64,000 nucleotides of DNA, taken from NCBI GenBank assembly GCA_022828125.1, contig JAJEJD010000018.1, positions 186,001-250,000 on the forward strand. Reading direction: 5' to 3'. This document shows positions 53,445-63,767 of the stretch, piece after piece. The notes under the pieces were generated by a model. The model had not been told where the DNA came from and did not search any database. It saw only the letters and a program-made list of their open reading frames with translations. Both the position numbers and the translations under genes were made by a program. This stretch comes from a bacterium. GTDB taxonomy: Bacteria > UBA8248. Every line of letters begins with the position of its first letter. Within the stretch, counting starts at the first letter, position 1.

Positions 53445-56129
53445 ATGTCCCCCCCTAAAGGCGCCCTGCAAGCCAGGAAAGAAAAAAATACATCCGGCAA
53501 AAATAGCCAAGGTCCTTCTCCTGCGATGCGCCAATATCTGGAGATGAAAAGACGCTATCCCGACGCGATACTGTTTTTCCAGTTGGGTGATTTCTTCGAA
53601 ATGTTCTATGAAGATGCCAAACTCGGGGCGAAGGTGTTGGAACTCGCGTTAACATCGCGCCAGAGTGATGACAAGGGTCCTATCCCGATGTGCGGTGTGC
53701 CTTGCCATTCGGCCTCCTCATATTGTGGGCGATTACTGGAAGCCGGTCATAAAGTCGCCATATGTGAGCAGGTGGAAGACGCGAGAGAAAGTAAGGGGGT
53801 TGTAAAACGCGAGGTAACCCGAGTCCTGACCCCGGGCACTTCGATTGCCGACCTTGAGTTGCTGGACAGCAAGGAATCTCAATACCTGGCGGGGATCACC
53901 GTATCGGCCGGAGCAGGAGAGACGCTTTGGGGAATGGCGTGGCTCGATAGCTCGACCGGTGAGTTTTGTGCGACGCAGGTGGAAGGCGATGCCGCAGAGA
54001 CGCTGATTTGCAACCAATTGGAGAGGCTCTCTCCTCGTGAACTTATTTTCCCGGATGTATTTTCCCTTTCGGATGGGTTGAAAAACAAAATTGATGAACT
54101 GAGTATTCATGTCGAAAAAAGGCCGGCCGCCACTTTTTGCGAGCCGCTTGATTTCAATAGCAGGGACACCATATTTCCGGATGAAGCGAATGTTCTGGCG
54201 TATCCGGTAGCAGCAGGTTCCGCCGTAGGTGTTTTAACGTATCTCAAAGAAAACCAGCCTGGCGATTTTCCTCATCTCAAGCCTGTCTTTTTTTCCCGAC
54301 TCTCCGATTCCATGATTCTCGATGCCGCCACGTTGCGAAATTTGGAAATTACCCGTTCGGCGGTGGATCGGGGGAAAAGGGGCACTCTGCTCGGTTTGTT
54401 GGATGAAACGTTGACGGGCATGGGAGGACGTCTGCTGAAAAAATGGGTGCTTTCCCCATTGATTCAAGAAAAAGCCATCGAATATCGCGCCGAATCAGTA
54501 GAAGAACTCGTGAACAATTCTGAAATTCTGAATACACTCAAAAAAGCCCTCGAACCCATTCAGGATATCGAGCGGCTCCTGGGACGTGTGGGTTCCCAGA
54601 CTGCGAATGCCCGAGATGTAGCCGGATTAGGCGTATCTTTGGCCATGTTGCCCGAAGTTTGTGAGGCGCTCAAAGGGATGGCGTCTGAATTGTTTTGTTC
54701 CATCCTGTCGGGCTGGGATTCTCTCGAAGACGTAGCGTTGGAACTGAAGAACGCGATTGTAGATGATCCGCCCGTTTCCATTCGAGAAGGTGGAATATTT
54801 CGCACTGATTACGACCAGGAACTTGCCCGCTTGAGAAAGGCGCAGCAAGAGGGTGATTCGTGGCTCAGGAATTATGAAAGCGGGGAAAAAGAACGAACGG
54901 GGCTGCCTCTGAAAATCGGGTTCAATCGCGTTTTTGGATATTATCTGGAGATACCCAAACGATTCAGTGAGCAGGCGCCGATGGAATATACGCGCAAGCA
55001 GACCCTCGTTTCCGCTGAACGATACATCACTTCCGAGTTGAAAAAGATGGAAGAAGACTTACTCGGCGCAGAGGAAAAAGCCCATCATCTCGAGTTCATG
55101 CTTTTTGGACGCTTAAGAACGCAAATATCTCAACAGGCCAAGCGCATACTTGCCGCCGCCGAGAGGATAGCGATTCTGGATGCCGTTTTGTCCCTGGCGC
55201 TCGTTGCGCGCAAATTCGGATATGTCAGACCCCGAATTATGGATTCTACCGCTCTGGAAATCATGGATGGGAGGCATCCCGTCATAGAGGCGGAGAATCC
55301 CGGCCTCTCTTTCGTGCCGAACGATTTGTCGATCCGTGACGACCGCCGAATACTCATTATTACAGGGCCGAATATGGCCGGCAAATCCACTTACCTGCGT
55401 CAAACGGCGCTTATCATTCTCATGGCGCAGATTGGTAGTTTCGTCCCAGCCAAGAGCGCGAAAATCGGTTTGGTTGATAGGGTGTTCACTCGCGTTGGTG
55501 CGCATGATCGACTTTTGGAGGGGCAAAGCACCTTCATGGTGGAGATGGTGGAAACGGCTACCATATTAAGAGAGTCGACCCAGAAGAGTTTCATCGTCCT
55601 GGACGAGGTCGGGCGAGGTACGAGTACCTATGACGGAGTCAGCATTGCATGGTCAATTGTCGAGTATCTTCATAACAAGGTCCAGCACAGGGCGAGGACT
55701 TTGTTTGCGACCCATTATCATGAGTTGGCCGAACTCTCAAAAGAGCTCACATGTGTGAAAAACTTAACGGTCGAGGTTCGGGAGTGGGGTGATGAAATCG
55801 TTTTCTTGCGAAAAGTAACCGATGGTAGTTGCGACAGAAGCTACGGCATTCAGGTTGGCAGGCTGGCAGGACTTCCGGAAGAGGTTATCGACCGAGCAAA
55901 GACATTGCTCTCCAGGTTTGAGAGTACGGAGACGGTCTCCCGTTCCAGCGCCGAAAAATCTGATTTGGAAAATCGTCGGGGCAATGGGCAATTGCCTTTG
56001 TTTTCAGGAACAGAACCGAAAATCGAAAATTTGTTAAAAAGCGTTGATCCGGATTCCATGACACCTCGCCAAGCTCTCGAAACCCTATATGAACTCAGGG
56101 AAATCATGGCAAACATTGAGCAGCGATAA
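53445..56129 (+). CDS. mutS: DNA mismatch repair protein MutS
   Basis: An 894-residue mismatch-recognition ATPase. The mismatch-wedging motif is in LFFQLGDFFEMFYEDAKL (Phe-x-Glu), the ATPase has GPNMAGKSTYLRQTALI, DEVGRGTSTYDGVSIAWSIV and FATHYHELAEL. A C-terminal beta-clamp-like peptide QLPLFSG is present near residue 845. About 25 extra basic residues precede the PAMRQYLEMKRRYPDAI start block. Full length, intact. Confidence 0.96.
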   Translation: MSPPKGALQARKEKNTSGKNSQGPSPAMRQYLEMKRRYPDAILFFQLGDFFEMFYEDAKLGAKVLELALTSRQSDDKGPIPMCGVPCHSASSYCGRLLEAGHKVAICEQVEDARESKGVVKREVTRVLTPGTSIADLELLDSKESQYLAGITVSAGAGETLWGMAWLDSSTGEFCATQVEGDAAETLICNQLERLSPRELIFPDVFSLSDGLKNKIDELSIHVEKRPAATFCEPLDFNSRDTIFPDEANVLAYPVAAGSAVGVLTYLKENQPGDFPHLKPVFFSRLSDSMILDAATLRNLEITRSAVDRGKRGTLLGLLDETLTGMGGRLLKKWVLSPLIQEKAIEYRAESVEELVNNSEILNTLKKALEPIQDIERLLGRVGSQTANARDVAGLGVSLAMLPEVCEALKGMASELFCSILSGWDSLEDVALELKNAIVDDPPVSIREGGIFRTDYDQELARLRKAQQEGDSWLRNYESGEKERTGLPLKIGFNRVFGYYLEIPKRFSEQAPMEYTRKQTLVSAERYITSELKKMEEDLLGAEEKAHHLEFMLFGRLRTQISQQAKRILAAAERIAILDAVLSLALVARKFGYVRPRIMDSTALEIMDGRHPVIEAENPGLSFVPNDLSIRDDRRILIITGPNMAGKSTYLRQTALIILMAQIGSFVPAKSAKIGLVDRVFTRVGAHDRLLEGQSTFMVEMVETATILRESTQKSFIVLDEVGRGTSTYDGVSIAWSIVEYLHNKVQHRARTLFATHYHELAELSKELTCVKNLTVEVREWGDEIVFLRKVTDGSCDRSYGIQVGRLAGLPEEVIDRAKTLLSRFESTETVSRSSAEKSDLENRRGNGQLPLFSGTEPKIENLLKSVDPDSMTPRQALETLYELREIMANIEQR

Positions 56130-56255
56130 CAGTAGGACTAGGTCACAGGGCACAATCTGGAAGTGCTTCATGGGCGTGAAGCCGGGGATGTCAAAAAGGT
56201 ATTGAGAGCTTTTTTCATATGCGATAGCATTGAACTTCAAGGCAAAGGAGAACAT

Positions 56256-56861
56256 ATGTTATCTAACTCCCGGGAAACATTTGTTCTTAGGAAACTTGCC
56301 ATAGCCATCTGTATGATTTTCGCTTTGGCGGGGCCGGCGATTTCCGCAACGGATAACCAGGACGGAATCCGGATAAAAGATATTATTGTTATCAAGAAGA
56401 ATGGGCAGTTGCTTGTTTTTGGTTCTCTTTTGGGTGCATTTTCGCCGAAATTGTTGGAAGCTATTCATAGCGGTGTGACTACGAAGTTCATCTTTGATGT
56501 AAGTCTCTTTCGCTCTCGCAAGCTGATTTATGATTCGGAAGTCACCTCGCGGCAGTTGCATCACCAAGTGAAATATAGCGCCTTGAAAAAAACATACACT
56601 TTTCATCTCAAAGAAGGGGAGAAAGAGATCGAAAGAAAAGTGACGAAAAGCCAAGGCGAAATGACGGACTGGATGCGCGAGTTGAACGGCGCACCCATTG
56701 TCCCTGGTAAGATATTGCCCCCCAATAGTCGATACTATGTGAAAATCAGAGCGCGGCTGAATCATGTGGACTTTGTCTTCCCCTTTAATTACTTGCTTGC
56801 TTTTTGGGGGAAGCAGTCTGATTGGAGCTATTCCCAGATATTTAGTTCTGAAGGGATGTGA
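56256..56861 (+). CDS. DUF4390 protein
   Basis: A 201-residue exported protein: a signal peptide ends near ISA (residue 28). The rest matches DUF4390, proteins of unknown function usually coded directly before ntrY-like kinases, as here (gap of 3 bases). Conserved-looking segments are SLFRSRKLIYDSEVTSRQLH and KYSALKKTYTFHLKEGEKEI. ATG 56256 is set by AAGGAG 6 bases upstream; the frame further up lacks a site. Likely periplasmic, perhaps linked to signalling by NtrY. Confidence 0.85.
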   Translation: MLSNSRETFVLRKLAIAICMIFALAGPAISATDNQDGIRIKDIIVIKKNGQLLVFGSLLGAFSPKLLEAIHSGVTTKFIFDVSLFRSRKLIYDSEVTSRQLHHQVKYSALKKTYTFHLKEGEKEIERKVTKSQGEMTDWMRELNGAPIVPGKILPPNSRYYVKIRARLNHVDFVFPFNYLLAFWGKQSDWSYSQIFSSEGM

Positions 56862-56864
56862 ATT

Positions 56865-59129
56865 GTGCATCCAACGCGACTGAAAAATCAGGATATTTCT
56901 TCGCGCCGACGAAGAACACTTCTGCGATCCTTCATCGCTTTGATCATCATTGCGACTCTCTCGTTTACGGCTTGGATTTACTTCAAAGAGCTTGAGCCGG
57001 GAGTCCCCCTGCTAAACAATGTAGTCGTATTTGCGCTAGTGAATCTGAGTATCATTCTGCTCATGGTGGTTATTCTTTTGGTCGCAAAGCACTTGGTGCG
57101 TCTTTACTACGAGGGGAGAACGGGCGCCGGTCGTTCACGCTTGCAATTAAAACTCGTATTGGCGTTTGTCGGATTTACGCTCATCCCTGTAGTGGCTCTT
57201 TTCGTGGTGGCCAGCGGCTTGATAAACCAAAGCTTTAACGCTTTGTTCAGCATGAATGTGGAGCGCGCGCTTAAAGGGTCCTTCGAGGTGGCTCAAACCT
57301 ATTATCGTGAGGTGGAGCGAAACGCGCTATTTAGTGCGAGTCGACTTGCGCTTATGCTGGAGAAAGCGCACCCCGGGACGTTGGAAAACCCTAAGGCGAT
57401 TGAAAAAATATTGGAGTCCGAGAGAAAGAGCTTGGGAGTGGATTTCATTCAACTCTACGATAGAGAGCGGCAGGAGCTCGTATCGGTCAGGCGTCCTGGG
57501 TTAGAACGATCCGCGATGTTCTCGCCACTGGTGGGATACGTGGATCAAGTGATTGATGGGGAGTCGCGCTCAAGTATAGAGAATTGGGAAAAAGGAGATG
57601 TCATCTATGGCGTGGCGCCTTTGAAGATAGAAAAAAAAGTGGTGGGATTTGTCGTTGTATCCAAATATGTGCCGGATCGACTTGTGGAGAAGGTCAGAGG
57701 CATATCGGACTCCTTTGTGAATTATAAAGAGTTGGAACTGTCCAAGAATCCAATCAAGGCAAACTACATCATCACCTTTTTGGTGGTCACTTTGCTCATT
57801 CTCTTCGCGGCCATATGGTTTGGCTTCTACCTCGCTCGAGGGATTACGGTTCCCATCGAGAAATTAGCGGAAGCTACGAGGGCGGTATCAGATGGCGATC
57901 TCGAACATCGCGTGGATGCGCAGGCAGATGGCGAAGTGGGGATTTTGGTCAACGCATTTAACAGCATGACGGAAGAATTGTCGGCGAACAAAGAAAAAAT
58001 CGAAGAATCTTCTGAAATCTTGAGCCGTTCCAACCTGGAAATCGACAGAAGACGCAGGTATATGGAGGCGATGCTCGAAAATATCGGAGCGGGTGTAATA
58101 TCAATCAATCGCCGAGGGCGCGTTACTATCCTCAACAAAGCAGCCGGGGAGTTGCTGAGGATCGAACCGCAGAATGCCGTAGGGCAAATGTTCAGGGAGG
58201 TTTTCGAAAGCACACATCTTGAGCCTGTTCGTCAGTTGATGCGTTCTATGCGAGCCCGAGAACACCAAAGCGCTTCGGAGCAAGTTGAGGTCATGATTGA
58301 TGGCCGCGTACTGACACTACGCGCGAGCTTGACTCTGCTGAAGAGCGCAGATGGTGGCAGGCTTGGTGCCGTCATTGTGTTTGATGATATGACGGCTTTG
58401 ATACGGGCTCAAAAAGTGGCCGCATGGCAGGAGGTGGCCCGTGGCATCGCGCACGAGATCAAAAATCCACTTACGCCGATTCAACTTTCTGCCCAGAGAA
58501 TGAGACGGAAATTTGATAATGAGGCCTATGATTTTGCCGAAGTATTCGAATCTTGCACGGATACCATTATCAATCAGGTAACAAGCCTGATTGATATGGT
58601 GGATGAATTCAGCCGATTCGCTCGCATGCCGGAGCCCAGATTGAGGCTTTGCGGGTTTGTACCCCTTATTGAGGATGTTGCAAATTTATATCGTGGCAGG
58701 AAGGGAGATGTGAAATTCTCGATTCATATCGATGTTGGGAATGCTGCTGTCATGGCGGATCCCGAGCAGTTGCAGCGCGTATTTATCAATTTGTTGGAAA
58801 ATGCCTTTGAATCCCACGAGGTCAAGGGCGAGATTGATTTGCAAGCGTGGAGTGATAAAGACAGAAATATGATAGTTGTTGAAGTGGCCGACCAAGGGCA
58901 GGGTATATCGGAAGATGTGAAAGGCCATATATTCTCGCCTTACTTTTCGACCAAGGATAGAGGCACCGGGTTGGGTTTGGCTATATGTCACCGTATTGTG
59001 GCGGATCACAATGGAACAATAGGCGTGCGAGATAATCATCCGTCTGGTTCCATTTTTCGCGTAACGTTGCCACTGGCGCCTGCTGTGGACATCACGCCCG
59101 AAAAGCAAAGGACGGCTTCCATTGGATAA
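56865..59129 (+). CDS. NtrY-like sensor histidine kinase
   Basis: A 754-residue membrane kinase. Three N-terminal transmembrane helices (about 20-40, 48-70, 95-120), an extracytoplasmic sensor (about 125-300), a fourth helix at about 305-325, HAMP (about 325-380, ARGITVPIEKLAEATRAVSD), PAS (about 405-510), HisKA with the phospho-His in VARGIAHEIKNPLTPIQLSA, and the ATPase with KDRGTGLGLAICHRIVADHN. GTG start at 56865. Its end overlaps the regulator-LpxC gene by 8 bases, so they are translationally coupled and presumably a signalling pair. Confidence 0.92.
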   Translation: MHPTRLKNQDISSRRRRTLLRSFIALIIIATLSFTAWIYFKELEPGVPLLNNVVVFALVNLSIILLMVVILLVAKHLVRLYYEGRTGAGRSRLQLKLVLAFVGFTLIPVVALFVVASGLINQSFNALFSMNVERALKGSFEVAQTYYREVERNALFSASRLALMLEKAHPGTLENPKAIEKILESERKSLGVDFIQLYDRERQELVSVRRPGLERSAMFSPLVGYVDQVIDGESRSSIENWEKGDVIYGVAPLKIEKKVVGFVVVSKYVPDRLVEKVRGISDSFVNYKELELSKNPIKANYIITFLVVTLLILFAAIWFGFYLARGITVPIEKLAEATRAVSDGDLEHRVDAQADGEVGILVNAFNSMTEELSANKEKIEESSEILSRSNLEIDRRRRYMEAMLENIGAGVISINRRGRVTILNKAAGELLRIEPQNAVGQMFREVFESTHLEPVRQLMRSMRAREHQSASEQVEVMIDGRVLTLRASLTLLKSADGGRLGAVIVFDDMTALIRAQKVAAWQEVARGIAHEIKNPLTPIQLSAQRMRRKFDNEAYDFAEVFESCTDTIINQVTSLIDMVDEFSRFARMPEPRLRLCGFVPLIEDVANLYRGRKGDVKFSIHIDVGNAAVMADPEQLQRVFINLLENAFESHEVKGEIDLQAWSDKDRNMIVVEVADQGQGISEDVKGHIFSPYFSTKDRGTGLGLAICHRIVADHNGTIGVRDNHPSGSIFRVTLPLAPAVDITPEKQRTASIG

Positions 59130-61254
59130 GGGACATGTGCTTATCGTCGATGATGAGCGTGAAATACTCGTGAGCCTGGAAGATGTCTTGCTGGATGAAG
59201 GATATCGCGTAGAACGGGCCGAGTCCGGAGAAACTGCTCTTCAGTTGGTCCGGACCGAAGCTCCCGATGTGGTTCTGGTTGATGTGTGGATGCCCGGCAT
59301 TGATGGAATCAAGACTTTACAAGCAGTAAAAGAGTCCAACGCAGATATCGAAGTCGTCCTGATGTCGGGCCACGGCAACATTGAGACCGCAGTGGCGGCA
59401 ACAAAGTCGGGTGCTTTCAATTTCATCGAAAAACCTCTGTCCATTGATACGGTTTTGCGCATAGTCGATTCCGCCGTTCAAGCGCGAAGGGCTAAGGATC
59501 TCAAGGCGAATAATGTTGGCGACGTGATACTTGACGGTGCCAGCAAGCATATTCAGAGGGTTCGAAGAGCTATCAGGAGAGCGGCGAAAGATACTGGCCC
59601 CTTGCTGATCGCAGGTGAAAGAGGAACCGGCAAGCGTTTTATCGCAAGGGCAATTCACGAGAACGGCGACGGAAAAGAAGAAGGCTTTCGGCCTGTTCAT
59701 TGCCGTTCGCTGTTTCCGGTATCGGGAGAAAAAGGATGGGGAGAGGTGCTGGAGCGGCTGGCGCCCGCTACCTTCCAGGGGACGGTATATCTTGATGGCC
59801 TGGAGCAGTTGCCCATGGTGGAGGGAGAGGAATTTCTCACTCGATTCCTTGCGCATACAAAGGGGGCGATACGTTTAATGGCATCCGTTGAGCATGTGGG
59901 AACTTCGAAAGACAAGGCCAACGTGCGAGCCCTGTCCGCAAAAATAGGCGCTGATGCAATACATTTGCCCCCTCTGCGCGAATGCAAAGAGGATATTTTG
60001 CCTTTGGCTAACAGATTTTTGAGTGAATGTGTTGAAATTGGCAGGCATGAAAAAGAATTTTCTGAGGATGTCATTGCGGTCCTGGAAGACTATGACTGGC
60101 CGGGCAATATTGCTGAACTAAAAGGTGCAGTGACCAAAGCGGCATCTACATCGCAGGGACCGGAGATTCACATTGACCACTTGCCGTACGCGATACGCGA
60201 GGCTTCTGATTTCGATGTGAGCACATCAAAAAACGATACCCCGTCTAATTTTAATGTGGCCAGAACTCAGTGGGAGCGACAGTACCTTGCCTTCCATTTG
60301 GAGGAGCACGACTGGAATATCGATGAGACCGCCCGGGCGGTGGGCATGACGAAACCTGCTTTAATACGAAAAATTAAAGCATACAATATAGAGCCCATTT
60401 TGCCGGCATCGACGGTGCCGAGGGAAACAAATCAAAGGAGCATTTCGAAAAGTGTCGTATTGTATGGCCGGGGGCTTCACTCGGGACTAAAAACCGGACT
60501 GATCATCGAGCCCCTGCCGCCGGGGAGCGGGATACAGTTCGGCAACCTGACAAGCCCCGATACTGTGAGGGCGAGTGTCGATTTCGTGGATGGCACCAAC
60601 CATGCGACAAACTTGCGCAATGGAACTGTGACTGCTCGAACGATTGAGCATCTCATGAGCGCGCTGCACGCATACAAGATAAGCAATATACTCATCAAAA
60701 TGAGTGAGGAAGTGCCCGTCATGGATGGGTCGGCAGTGGAGTTTTGTCGCTTGCTTGAAGAAGCAGGCATTGAGGATCAGAAAGAAAAACGCGAGGACTT
60801 GTGGATTGATAAGGTATATGAGGTAGGTGAACCGAATGACGGAAAGGGTTACGTTCGTATCGAGCCGGCGGATTCTTTTTCGGTTTCATACCTTATTGAT
60901 TATCCCAAACCGATTGGGAAGCAAACCTACGTTTATGAACACAAGAATGCATTGGGTTTTCAGGAAGAAATCGCACCGGCCCGTACTTTTGGTTTCGTCA
61001 ATGAGTTGGAGTCGCTCGAAAAAATGGGCTTGGCCGAGGGAGGTCGTTGGGATAACGTAATTCTTGTGGACAAAGCTCGTGTCGTGAATACCCAATTGCG
61101 ATTTCCCAATGAATTCGTTCGCCACAAAATTCTTGACGTCATCGGAGATCTATATTTAGCCGGTCGTCCTGTCCGAGGAAAAGTAACCGCTGAGAGAAGT
61201 GGACACCGACATAATGTAGCTTTGGTCAAGAAATTGATGGAAGTCCATGGCTGA
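59122..61254 (+). CDS. lpxC: NtrX-like response regulator fused to LpxC (UDP-3-O-acyl-GlcNAc deacetylase)
   Basis: One 710-residue frame without interruption. Receiver domain (1-120): Asp10-Asp11, phospho-acceptor Asp54 (LVDVWMPG), Ser82, Lys104. AAA+ domain (about 135-355): Walker A GERGTGK (165-171), but no GAFTGA loop, Walker B ends LDGLEQ (Glu replaced by Gly226), and WPGNIAEL replaces WPGNxREL; sigma-54 activation is therefore doubtful. Fis-type HTH (381-422). After a 15-residue linker a full-length LpxC (438-710) begins at QRSISKSVVLYGRGLHSG with Glu509-His510, His668, Asp672 and His695, the complete zinc and catalytic set of the committed lipid A step. TTG start, overlapping ntrY by 8 bases. 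No stand-alone lpxC start was found inside. Confidence 0.93.
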   Translation: MDKGHVLIVDDEREILVSLEDVLLDEGYRVERAESGETALQLVRTEAPDVVLVDVWMPGIDGIKTLQAVKESNADIEVVLMSGHGNIETAVAATKSGAFNFIEKPLSIDTVLRIVDSAVQARRAKDLKANNVGDVILDGASKHIQRVRRAIRRAAKDTGPLLIAGERGTGKRFIARAIHENGDGKEEGFRPVHCRSLFPVSGEKGWGEVLERLAPATFQGTVYLDGLEQLPMVEGEEFLTRFLAHTKGAIRLMASVEHVGTSKDKANVRALSAKIGADAIHLPPLRECKEDILPLANRFLSECVEIGRHEKEFSEDVIAVLEDYDWPGNIAELKGAVTKAASTSQGPEIHIDHLPYAIREASDFDVSTSKNDTPSNFNVARTQWERQYLAFHLEEHDWNIDETARAVGMTKPALIRKIKAYNIEPILPASTVPRETNQRSISKSVVLYGRGLHSGLKTGLIIEPLPPGSGIQFGNLTSPDTVRASVDFVDGTNHATNLRNGTVTARTIEHLMSALHAYKISNILIKMSEEVPVMDGSAVEFCRLLEEAGIEDQKEKREDLWIDKVYEVGEPNDGKGYVRIEPADSFSVSYLIDYPKPIGKQTYVYEHKNALGFQEEIAPARTFGFVNELESLEKMGLAEGGRWDNVILVDKARVVNTQLRFPNEFVRHKILDVIGDLYLAGRPVRGKVTAERSGHRHNVALVKKLMEVHG

Positions 61255-61281: not shown

Positions 61282-62361
61282 TTGCTAAATCATGGAACAT
61301 CACCTTTGAATGAGGAACGTCTGACATACCGCGACGCGGGCGTCGATATCGAGTTGGGCGAGGGTTTCGTTCAGGCTATCGCCCAAATTGTAAAATCCAC
61401 CCATTCTAGTCAAAGTGGCCGTATTCTGAAGGGGACGACGGATTTTGCAGGTTTGTTCCGTCTCGGCGGAGAATATGAAGATCCAGTCCTTGTATCAGGC
61501 ACCGACGGTGTCGGCACGAAATTGCTCTTGGCCCAAGAGTACGAGCGTCATGATTCCATAGGGGTCGACTTGGTGGCCATGTGTGTCAACGATATCCTGA
61601 CCATGGGGGCAGAACCGCTTTTTTTTCTTGACTACATTGCAACGGATAAGATTGACCAAGGCGTATTGGAGGCAGTCGTATCCGGGATTGCCAGTGGATG
61701 CCGGGAGGCTGGGTGCGCGCTCCTTGGGGGCGAGACGGCCGAGATGCCAGACATGTATAGGCCGGGCATGTACGACCTTGCTGGATTCGCTGTGGGGGTG
61801 GTTGAACGGGAAAATTTGGACAAGCAAACACCTGTGAAAACTGGCGACGCCATACTCGCACTTCCTTCTTCAGGAATTCATAGCAACGGATATTCCTTGG
61901 TGCGAAAAATATTCGAATCGCAAGAAACACGGGATGTGGCGGCGCAAAAGCTAGGCGTTCCCATTGAAGATCTCTTATTGGAGCCGACTCGGATTTACGC
62001 CAAAGGGGTCCATTCCGTTCGAAGTGAAGAGGGTATTAGCGGCATCGCGCACATCACGGGAGGCGGAATTCCGGGAAACGTAAACCGTGTGATGCCAGAT
62101 GAATTGCAGGCGAAATTTTATCCTGAAAAATGGGTGACGCCCGCGATATTCTCATTGATTCAAGAATTCGGCCCGGTTGAGAGTGCGGAGATGTATCGCA
62201 TTTTTAACATGGGCTTGGGTTTTGTCTTTCTCGTGAGATCGGAGCGAGCCGAGTCTTTGCTCGGATGTTTGAAAAATGCGGGAGAACAAGCCATGTTTGT
62301 TGGCGAAGTCACCAACAAACCGAAGGGCGGCCAATCCGTTGTCATTGAGGGCGTATTATAG
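61282..62361 (+). CDS. purM: Phosphoribosylaminoimidazole synthetase (AIR synthetase)
   Basis: A 359-residue ATP-dependent enzyme closing the imidazole ring in purine synthesis. YRDAGVDIELG at the start, DGVGTKLLLAQEY, VDLVAMCVNDILTMGAEPLF, GCALLGGETAEMPDMY and HITGGGIPGN are the standard blocks. The start is unsure: TTG 61282 or TTG 61306 (GGAAC upstream). purN follows, sharing one base. Confidence 0.95.
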   Translation: MLNHGTSPLNEERLTYRDAGVDIELGEGFVQAIAQIVKSTHSSQSGRILKGTTDFAGLFRLGGEYEDPVLVSGTDGVGTKLLLAQEYERHDSIGVDLVAMCVNDILTMGAEPLFFLDYIATDKIDQGVLEAVVSGIASGCREAGCALLGGETAEMPDMYRPGMYDLAGFAVGVVERENLDKQTPVKTGDAILALPSSGIHSNGYSLVRKIFESQETRDVAAQKLGVPIEDLLLEPTRIYAKGVHSVRSEEGISGIAHITGGGIPGNVNRVMPDELQAKFYPEKWVTPAIFSLIQEFGPVESAEMYRIFNMGLGFVFLVRSERAESLLGCLKNAGEQAMFVGEVTNKPKGGQSVVIEGVL

Positions 62362-63014
62362 TGCATTCAGGAACACGATTGCGTGTGGGTGTTTTGGCCT
62401 CGGGTCGTGGGTCCAACTTGCAAGCCCTAATTGACGCCGGGGGGAACGCGAATTTCCCGGCGGAAGTTGTATTGGTGCTGAGCGACAAAAAAAATGCGTA
62501 TGCGCTTGAGCGCGCCTCGATGGCCGGCATACGAGCCAGACATCTGGCGCCGAAAGAGGAGGGCTTTTATCGAAAGGTGGGCGATGAGATTGAAAATCAC
62601 GGAATCGAACTCGTCTGTTGCGCTGGTTTCATGCGCATTTTACCGCCGGAGTTTGTGAGCCGTTTCTCGGGAAGAATCATCAACATTCATCCCTCGCTTC
62701 TGCCGAGTTTCCCGGGTCTGCACGCACAAAAAAAAGCCTTGGATGCCGGTGTGAGAGTGACCGGCTGCACGGTCCACTTTGTGGACGAGGGGGTGGATAC
62801 GGGACCGATTATTTTGCAAGCCGCTGTACCGATTCTGCCCCGTGACGATGAAGGAACCCTTTCGGAGAGGATTCTCGCTTATGAGCACCGCATCTACCCA
62901 CTGGCGGTGCGACTCATCGCCGAGGGGAATGTTCGCTGTATTGATGGCATCGTGCAATTTTCAGAAAATGCTTTTCCAGGTCATAAAGGATTCATCTCAC
63001 CCGTTTCGGAGTAG
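62361..63014 (+). CDS. purN: Phosphoribosylglycinamide formyltransferase
   Basis: A 217-residue enzyme adding formyl from 10-formyl-THF to GAR. RVGVLASGRGSNLQALIDA, catalytic INIHPSLLPSFPGLHAQKKA with Asn and His, and GCTVHFVDEGVDTGPIILQA are diagnostic. The GTG start shares a base with the purM stop codon (TAGTG), so the two are translated together. Confidence 0.95.
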   Translation: MHSGTRLRVGVLASGRGSNLQALIDAGGNANFPAEVVLVLSDKKNAYALERASMAGIRARHLAPKEEGFYRKVGDEIENHGIELVCCAGFMRILPPEFVSRFSGRIINIHPSLLPSFPGLHAQKKALDAGVRVTGCTVHFVDEGVDTGPIILQAAVPILPRDDEGTLSERILAYEHRIYPLAVRLIAEGNVRCIDGIVQFSENAFPGHKGFISPVSE

Positions 63015-63038: not shown

Positions 63039-63767
63039 TTGCGCAAATCATATCTCTTCATACTGGTATTTGGTTCCTTGTTTTTCTCGTTTTTACAAAC
63101 CTCCGTTTTCGGCGCGTCTATAGCGGAAGAGTCGCGTCAAAAGACGGAGAAAATCATCACCGCGCTCCAAAAAAAATATGAGACTCTAGGATCTCTGCAA
63201 GCCTCATTTGATCAGAAAAATGAATTGAAATCTCTTGGGCGAACGACGAAGTCGAGCGGAACCCTGTTGTGGAAGAAACCCGGCAGATTGCGCATGGAGT
63301 ACGTCGAACCTGAAAAGCAACTCCTGGTTTCAGATGGCCGTACGTTTTGGCTCTACACCGCTCGCTTCAAACAGGTGATGGTTTCCAAAACCGGAGGCTT
63401 TGGGGCCGGCGCCACTCCTTTGTTATTCCTGGCGGGCAAGGGGGATTTGAAGGAGAATTTTCATGTAACCATAGAAGAGATTGGAATTGCCAAACGAAGC
63501 GGGGGGATTTGGAGGGCCGGACAGCCCCATCGCATTCGCTTGGAGCCGAAGGCTGCGAGCGCCACGTTTCGCCGAATGTGGATCGAGGTGGAGCCTGAAA
63601 ATTTTAGAATCCTCACTCTGGCTTATGTTGATAACATCGGCAACAAAAGCCATCTGCGGTTTTCAAATATCAAAGAAAACGTCAGAATCACAGGAGAGGA
63701 ATTTCGGTTCATCGTGCCGCCGAACGTAGAAGTTCTGCAAATGCCGTCTCACAGTGGCCAGCAATAA
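63039..63767 (+). CDS. lolA: Outer-membrane lipoprotein carrier LolA-like protein
   Basis: A 242-residue periplasmic protein: signal peptide 1-25 (SYLFILVFGSLFFSFLQTSV), then a LolA fold with LGSLQASFDQKNELKSLGRT, SSGTLLWKKPGRLRMEYVEP and LLVSDGRTFWLYTARFKQVM. LolA ferries lipoproteins from LolCDE to LolB. The TTG start at 63039 follows purN by 24 bases. rseP follows after 15 bases. Confidence 0.88.
   Translation: MRKSYLFILVFGSLFFSFLQTSVFGASIAEESRQKTEKIITALQKKYETLGSLQASFDQKNELKSLGRTTKSSGTLLWKKPGRLRMEYVEPEKQLLVSDGRTFWLYTARFKQVMVSKTGGFGAGATPLLFLAGKGDLKENFHVTIEEIGIAKRSGGIWRAGQPHRIRLEPKAASATFRRMWIEVEPENFRILTLAYVDNIGNKSHLRFSNIKENVRITGEEFRFIVPPNVEVLQMPSHSGQQ

Follow-up and report, generated by a model that had tools for sequence, protein, structure and literature searches.

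A response regulator fused to LpxC in at least five bacterial phyla and its possible role in the control of lipid A synthesis

LpxC catalyses the committed step in the synthesis of lipid A and lipopolysaccharide, and the locus described here raises the question of why this enzyme should form the end of a response regulator. The analysed window, a stretch of 64,000 nucleotides from a bacterium of the lineage UBA8248, carries on its forward strand an uninterrupted frame of 710 codons with zero internal stops (59122..61254), in which Pfam recognizes an NtrX-type receiver, a degenerate AAA+ domain with its lid, a Fis-type HTH and a complete LpxC, in this order. The single frame described in the first-pass annotation is therefore confirmed. 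Translation begins with TTG, preceded by the sequence AAAGGA, and the frame of the relative L042 likewise opens at this Leu, with a stop immediately before it, so that the start must lie at about this position. The fused gene is kept in the genus, in the family and in other phyla.

The receiver (aa 6-114; 59137..59463, forward strand) matches Response_reg (PF00072, 2.6e-28) and possesses the residues that characterize such domains, i.e., the phospho-acceptor Asp54 (59281-59283), the acidic pair Asp10/Asp11, Ser82 and Lys104. The AAA+ core (aa 139-285) and lid (aa 286-364), which together occupy 59536..60213 on the same strand, were detected by Sigma54_activ_2 (4.9e-10) and AAA_lid_14 (2.3e-18), respectively. 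The core retains Walker A (GERGTGK) but lacks the Walker B Glu and the GAFTGA motif, and the relatives inspected exhibit the same pattern, such that neither the window protein nor these relatives possess the GAFTGA and Walker B D-E of the NtrC class of sigma-54 activators. The original view that this AAA+ part is unsuited to sigma-54 activation thus holds, whereas the loss of GAFTGA cannot serve as a mark of the fusion, since the aligned NtrX of Brucella also lacks it. The Fis-type HTH (aa 383-421; 60268..60384, forward strand; HTH_8, PF02954, 4.5e-6) is joined by a linker (aa 422-437; 60385..60432, forward strand) to the LpxC deacetylase domain (aa 438-706; 60433..61239, forward strand), which covers positions 1-267 of the 268 in PF03331 (1.5e-83) and scores 241 bits, above the TIGR00325 equivalog cut-off of 187.25 in NCBIfam. 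Thr507, Glu509, His510, His668, Lys669, Asp672 and His695 are all present in this domain, and the equivalent positions are invariant in 156 of 156 distinct relatives, in keeping with the five catalytic residues (Glu509, His510, His668, Asp672 and His695) listed in the first reading of the gene. For the regulator half, the best NCBIfam response-regulator model is NtrX (NF051870), with 238 bits against a cut-off of 600; judged by its sequence, this half is NtrX-derived, yet it is not filed as NtrX.

The arrangement of the locus also resembles that of NtrX, in that a receiver-AAA+-HTH protein adjoins an NtrY. All of the genes concerned lie on the forward strand and were assigned by Pfam, with synteny in support of the neighbours: mutS (53445..56129), a conserved syntenic marker, a conserved DUF4390 gene (56163..56861), the gene for an NtrY-like membrane sensor kinase with NtrY_N, HAMP, PAS, HisKA and HATPase_c domains (56865..59129), and, downstream of the fusion, the conserved purM (61282..62361), purN (62361..63014) and lolA (63039..63767), the last coding for an outer-membrane lipoprotein carrier. 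The order mutS-DUF4390-ntrY-[fusion]-purM-purN-lolA is fixed in the phylum of the window, and the fusion is present in every genome of this phylum whose lpxC escapes a contig end. The kinase gene ends at 59129 and the fusion starts at 59122, an overlap of 8 bases as first noted, and an NtrY-like kinase is encoded directly upstream of every own-phylum fusion with context, and in several other lineages, which upholds its proposed role as the likely partner. Across phyla, a kinase gene directly adjoins the fusion in only about 19 of the 87 loci examined with context, and in many of the others no kinase gene occurs within approximately 5 kb; these loci may depend on other kinases or on an NtrY encoded elsewhere. 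In some Desulfobacterota-type loci (L107, L109, L113, L118 and L135) the fusion is preceded, at a distance of some 600-715 bases, by a kinase gene of about 2.6-2.7 kb, whose product is a possible alternative partner. The DUF4390 gene upstream of ntrY, conserved in the own phylum and in some other fused loci (such as L072), may likewise code for a partner of the kinase. When searched, the genome of the window (97% complete, 3.9 Mb) yielded no second lpxC, leaving the fusion as the only lpxC detected. As lpxD was found in 18 of 18 genomes of the phylum, these bacteria are expected to make lipid A.

The fusion is not unique to this genome, and its lineage range proved to be that of a family which spans at least five bacterial phyla. 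The loci collected contain 197 LpxC frames of the subfamily, and a receiver is present in all 185 that are uncut by a contig end, while the eight frames that lack a receiver are all cut in this manner. Some loci represent one genome sampled twice; the distinct LpxC domains number 156, of which 146 are complete. Within the named genome collection, the best 80 relatives all carry the receiver wherever the contig permits a view, and they include Nitrospinota, Tectomicrobia, Entotheonella, Syntrophaceae and Desulfomonile, as well as Thermoanaerobaculia, Holophagae, Aminicenantes and assorted 'Deltaproteobacteria' MAGs. The range thus covers the own phylum, Nitrospinota, Tectomicrobia/Entotheonella, part of the Desulfobacterota, a minority of the Acidobacteriota, Aminicenantes and another 'delta' phylum. 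The fused subfamily was found in 65 of the 77 genomes with lpxC in the Nitrospinota sample, where frames are nearly all of 670-797 aa or about 460 aa, and in 40 of 46 in the sample of the phylum of G025 (labelled 'delta' at NCBI), where they are mostly of 412-496 aa. Within the Desulfobacterota sample it occurs in 32 of 140 genomes, at 343-433 bits and in frames of at least 418 aa, while unfused LpxC reaches at most 253 bits in frames of less than 400 aa; in the Acidobacteriota sample it occurs in 4 of 126 and is likewise set apart from ordinary LpxC. In both phyla a gap of approximately 90-100 bits, with zero intermediates, separates fused from ordinary LpxC. Sixteen named genomes were examined singly, and each codes for exactly one lpxC, which is fused.

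Several observations at the margins of the family may be added. The Desulfobacterota genome G449 codes for both a fused LpxC (L225) and an ordinary unfused one (G449:C302:4643-5455), which could be a natural test case, a gene transfer or a contamination. Five Acidobacteriota genomes (G200, G269, G239, G233 and G228) contain LpxC of other subfamilies in unusually long open frames of 499-706 aa, which could be other fusions or GC-rich read-through. Further N-terminal fusions were considered in the very long frames L119, L104, L227, L101, L111 and L124 and rejected, since their N-terminal parts appear to be of low complexity or out of frame. A plasmid search returned no record that spans most of the fusion, and the best matches listed cover the regulator half only.

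The family comprises two forms. Among the 146 distinct complete fusions, 64 have the receiver-AAA+-HTH-LpxC arrangement of the window protein, and 82 consist of a receiver, a linker of 28-71 residues and LpxC; in the window's own family, both forms share a single syntenic locus. The conserved unit of the family is the receiver together with LpxC. Of 148 receivers, 147 retain the phospho-acceptor D54, and 149 of 150 retain K104, while D11 and S/T82 are kept in all. The individual deviations are D54T in L229, the sole receiver-LpxC in which the phospho-acceptor Asp is replaced, K104R in L087, and D10E in four receivers (L089, L099, L142 and L143). Within the genus, dN/dS (pairwise Nei-Gojobori estimates from non-independent pairs) is similarly low in the receiver (0.05) and in LpxC (0.04), compared to 0.20 for the AAA+ core, 0.14 for the lid, 0.10 for the HTH and 0.79 for the very short linker that precedes the HTH. 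By this measure, constraint among the folded domains of the fusion is weakest in the AAA+ core, and the values of 0.10-0.14 indicate that the HTH and the lid are still under purifying selection and may retain a function in this genus.

As to the origin of the fusion, one branch of the LpxC tree, with an SH-aLRT support of 99, parts fused from unfused sequences; since this was a quick tree with long unfused branches, it allows a single fusion event, as support rather than proof. Distances between receivers and between LpxC domains correlate (Mantel r 0.83; permuted maximum 0.08), as expected if both domains have been inherited as a unit. In five short fusions from different lineages the receiver also has NtrX as its top response-regulator model, which suggests that the fusion probably arose with NtrX or with its receiver. 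The tree requires at least nine changes between long and short forms, and 12 in either direction under one-way models. It fits either direction equally, and repeated loss of the AAA+/HTH, rather than gain, is probable on grounds of plausibility only.

How these features may be assembled into a function depends on which part of the chain is considered to act. The simplest objection, that there are really two proteins, a separate NtrX and LpxC produced by internal initiation, processing or a missed frameshift, would find its start codons in the in-frame TTG at 60400 and GTG at 60415, shortly 5' of the LpxC domain. Neither of these is accompanied by a ribosome-binding site, the whole linker is devoid of a ribosome-binding-site-plus-start, and over the 146 fusions such signals are rarer before LpxC (1.4%) than in control stretches (4.3%). 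Independently assembled genomes from different phyla show the frame uninterrupted, and the same junction recurs in independent assemblies of the genus. An internal start and a missed frameshift, about which the first-pass annotation had cautioned, were accordingly not borne out, nor was a faulty assembly join, and we regard this explanation as very improbable. It may also be proposed that the protein is mainly a DNA-binding transcription factor which carries LpxC as a passenger and thereby couples the abundance of LpxC, or the state of its substrate, to expression. Standalone NtrX is an established transcription factor, the genus conserves both the HTH and the lid, and the full-length form predominates in Nitrospinota, with its frames mostly of 670-797 aa. 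Nevertheless, the missing Walker B Glu and GAFTGA and the weakly constrained AAA+ core speak against such a role, and the 82 fusions without AAA+/HTH keep receiver and LpxC together. A function shared by the whole family cannot lie in transcription, as the DNA-binding part is absent from more than half of the distinct members; the earlier suggestion of an enzyme riding on a DNA-binding protein is therefore abandoned for the family, and this explanation appears improbable.

If transcription is set aside, the receiver may still have no regulatory effect on LpxC, serving as a solubility or stoichiometry tag or as a phosphate sink. The predicted linker is long and disordered, and kinase genes are often not adjacent, as would suit a neutral fusion. 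Such an appendage should decay, yet the receiver is constrained to nearly the same extent as the enzyme, its phospho-site residues are kept nearly everywhere, and it was never seen missing from a member with a complete N-terminus, which leaves the neutral tag with little likelihood. Somewhat more credible, though still unlikely, is a receiver that acts as an RssB-like or degron-like handle, whereby phosphorylation steers delivery to a protease (FtsH, Lon or Clp) and sets the abundance rather than the activity of LpxC. The LpxC of E. coli is known to be controlled by regulated proteolysis (PMC12444477), and the predicted flexible tether suits an adaptor as much as an allosteric unit. The LapB zinc-ribbon model is unmatched in the own genome, a possible sign that the adaptor known from E. 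coli is absent, although this model is only 28 residues long, also rings in unrelated genomes and was scored on 150 of 180 candidates. No degron was identified.

The absence of the AAA+/HTH from about half of the family, even from close relatives at the same locus, suggests that the receiver acts on the enzyme and not on transcription, and direct phospho-control of LpxC, as originally envisaged, remains the leading idea. The main reading, to which we assign a probability of about 0.6 on the basis of the sequences, is that NtrY-like kinases control lipid A synthesis post-translationally via LpxC's own receiver. LpxC would be the output of its own response regulator chain: a membrane kinase of the NtrY type, which in the window's lineage is the product of the overlapping gene, would phosphorylate Asp54, and the phosphorylated receiver would either dimerise via its alpha4-beta5-alpha5 face or release or contact the active-site face of LpxC across the flexible tether. 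The activity or lifetime of LpxC would be raised or lowered as a result, and an envelope or redox signal would thereby set lipid A synthesis post-translationally. The AAA+/HTH would represent an inherited NtrX remnant, unneeded for the control of LpxC and probably dispensed with repeatedly. AlphaFold predicts for a short relative two confident domains connected by a disordered tether (mean pLDDT 86, pTM 0.67), and the modelled LpxC part shares 37% identity with solved structures of A. aeolicus LpxC; the model of the window protein has a mean pLDDT of 78.7 and a pTM of 0.48, with low pLDDT at residues 426-432. Domain placement is of low confidence overall in both models, as reflected in these pTM values, and neither demonstrates a contact between receiver and LpxC. 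As for the sign of the effect, we would guess, by analogy with alphaproteobacterial NtrYX, that the phosphorylated form lowers LpxC output. NtrYX is known there to control the envelope and LPS (PMC7240162), and in both R. sphaeroides and C. crescentus it acts as a repressor of lpxC transcription (PMC7240162, PMC12444477); deletion of ntrYX in R. sphaeroides raises lpxC mRNA 8.8-fold and LPS approximately twofold (PMC7240162), and binding of NtrX at lpxC was not found in this species (PMC7240162, PMC12444477).

The broader proposal, that several phyla govern LPS synthesis through direct two-component phosphorylation of its committed-step enzyme, LpxC itself being the response regulator, is favoured slightly less strongly, at somewhat better than even odds. 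If true, it would represent a widespread post-translational control of lipid A, distinct from both FtsH/LapB proteolysis and transcriptional NtrYX. The presence of the fusion in at least five phyla suggests that in these bacteria a sensor kinase acts directly as the switch of outer-membrane synthesis, and such control would also bear on why NtrYX is tied to the envelope. As the fusion is the sole lpxC in nearly all genomes checked, in several phyla, the question of whether phosphorylation of the receiver alters LpxC is testable with one soluble protein. According to a 2025 review of lipid A control, knowledge outside Proteobacteria is very scarce; the review cites NtrYX solely as a transcriptional influence, and mentions neither a receiver on LpxC nor an LpxC fusion (PMC12444477). 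No published description of a receiver-LpxC was found, although a mention in subscription journals or database entries is possible.

Comparison with known systems places the fusion between several of them. Its receiver and AAA+/HTH match NtrX best, with a further match to PDB 5m7n, and its gene is overlapped by that of an NtrY-like kinase with NtrY_N, PAS and HAMP domains, as in NtrYX; unlike NtrX, it bears a C-terminal LpxC, and the approximately half of its relatives without AAA+/HTH cannot act as NtrX transcription factors. The LpxC domain (TIGR00325, PF03331) appears from its sequence to be a complete enzyme with all catalytic and zinc residues, yet it follows a receiver, forms its own subfamily and shows no sign of the known C-terminal or FtsH/LapB-type control. 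In D. vulgaris, too, LpxC is the target of a two-component system, whose response regulator DVU2934 binds the lpxC promoter, but as a separate protein that acts on transcription (PMC3333781). LpxC-FabZ (PRK13188) is likewise a natural LpxC fusion, but it joins two enzymes, with FabZ at the C-terminus, and includes no signalling domain. Response regulators with enzymatic output include CheB, PleD (GGDEF), RpfG (HD-GYP) and PorX, and in these, as in the fusion, a catalytic domain is tethered behind an N-terminal receiver whose phosphorylation is expected to govern it. Their outputs are signalling or accessory enzymes, whereas the output here is the single committed-step enzyme of an essential pathway. 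What appears to be new is a response regulator with enzymatic output in which that output is an essential biosynthetic enzyme, and it is such a regulator that control of LpxC through its own receiver would supply.
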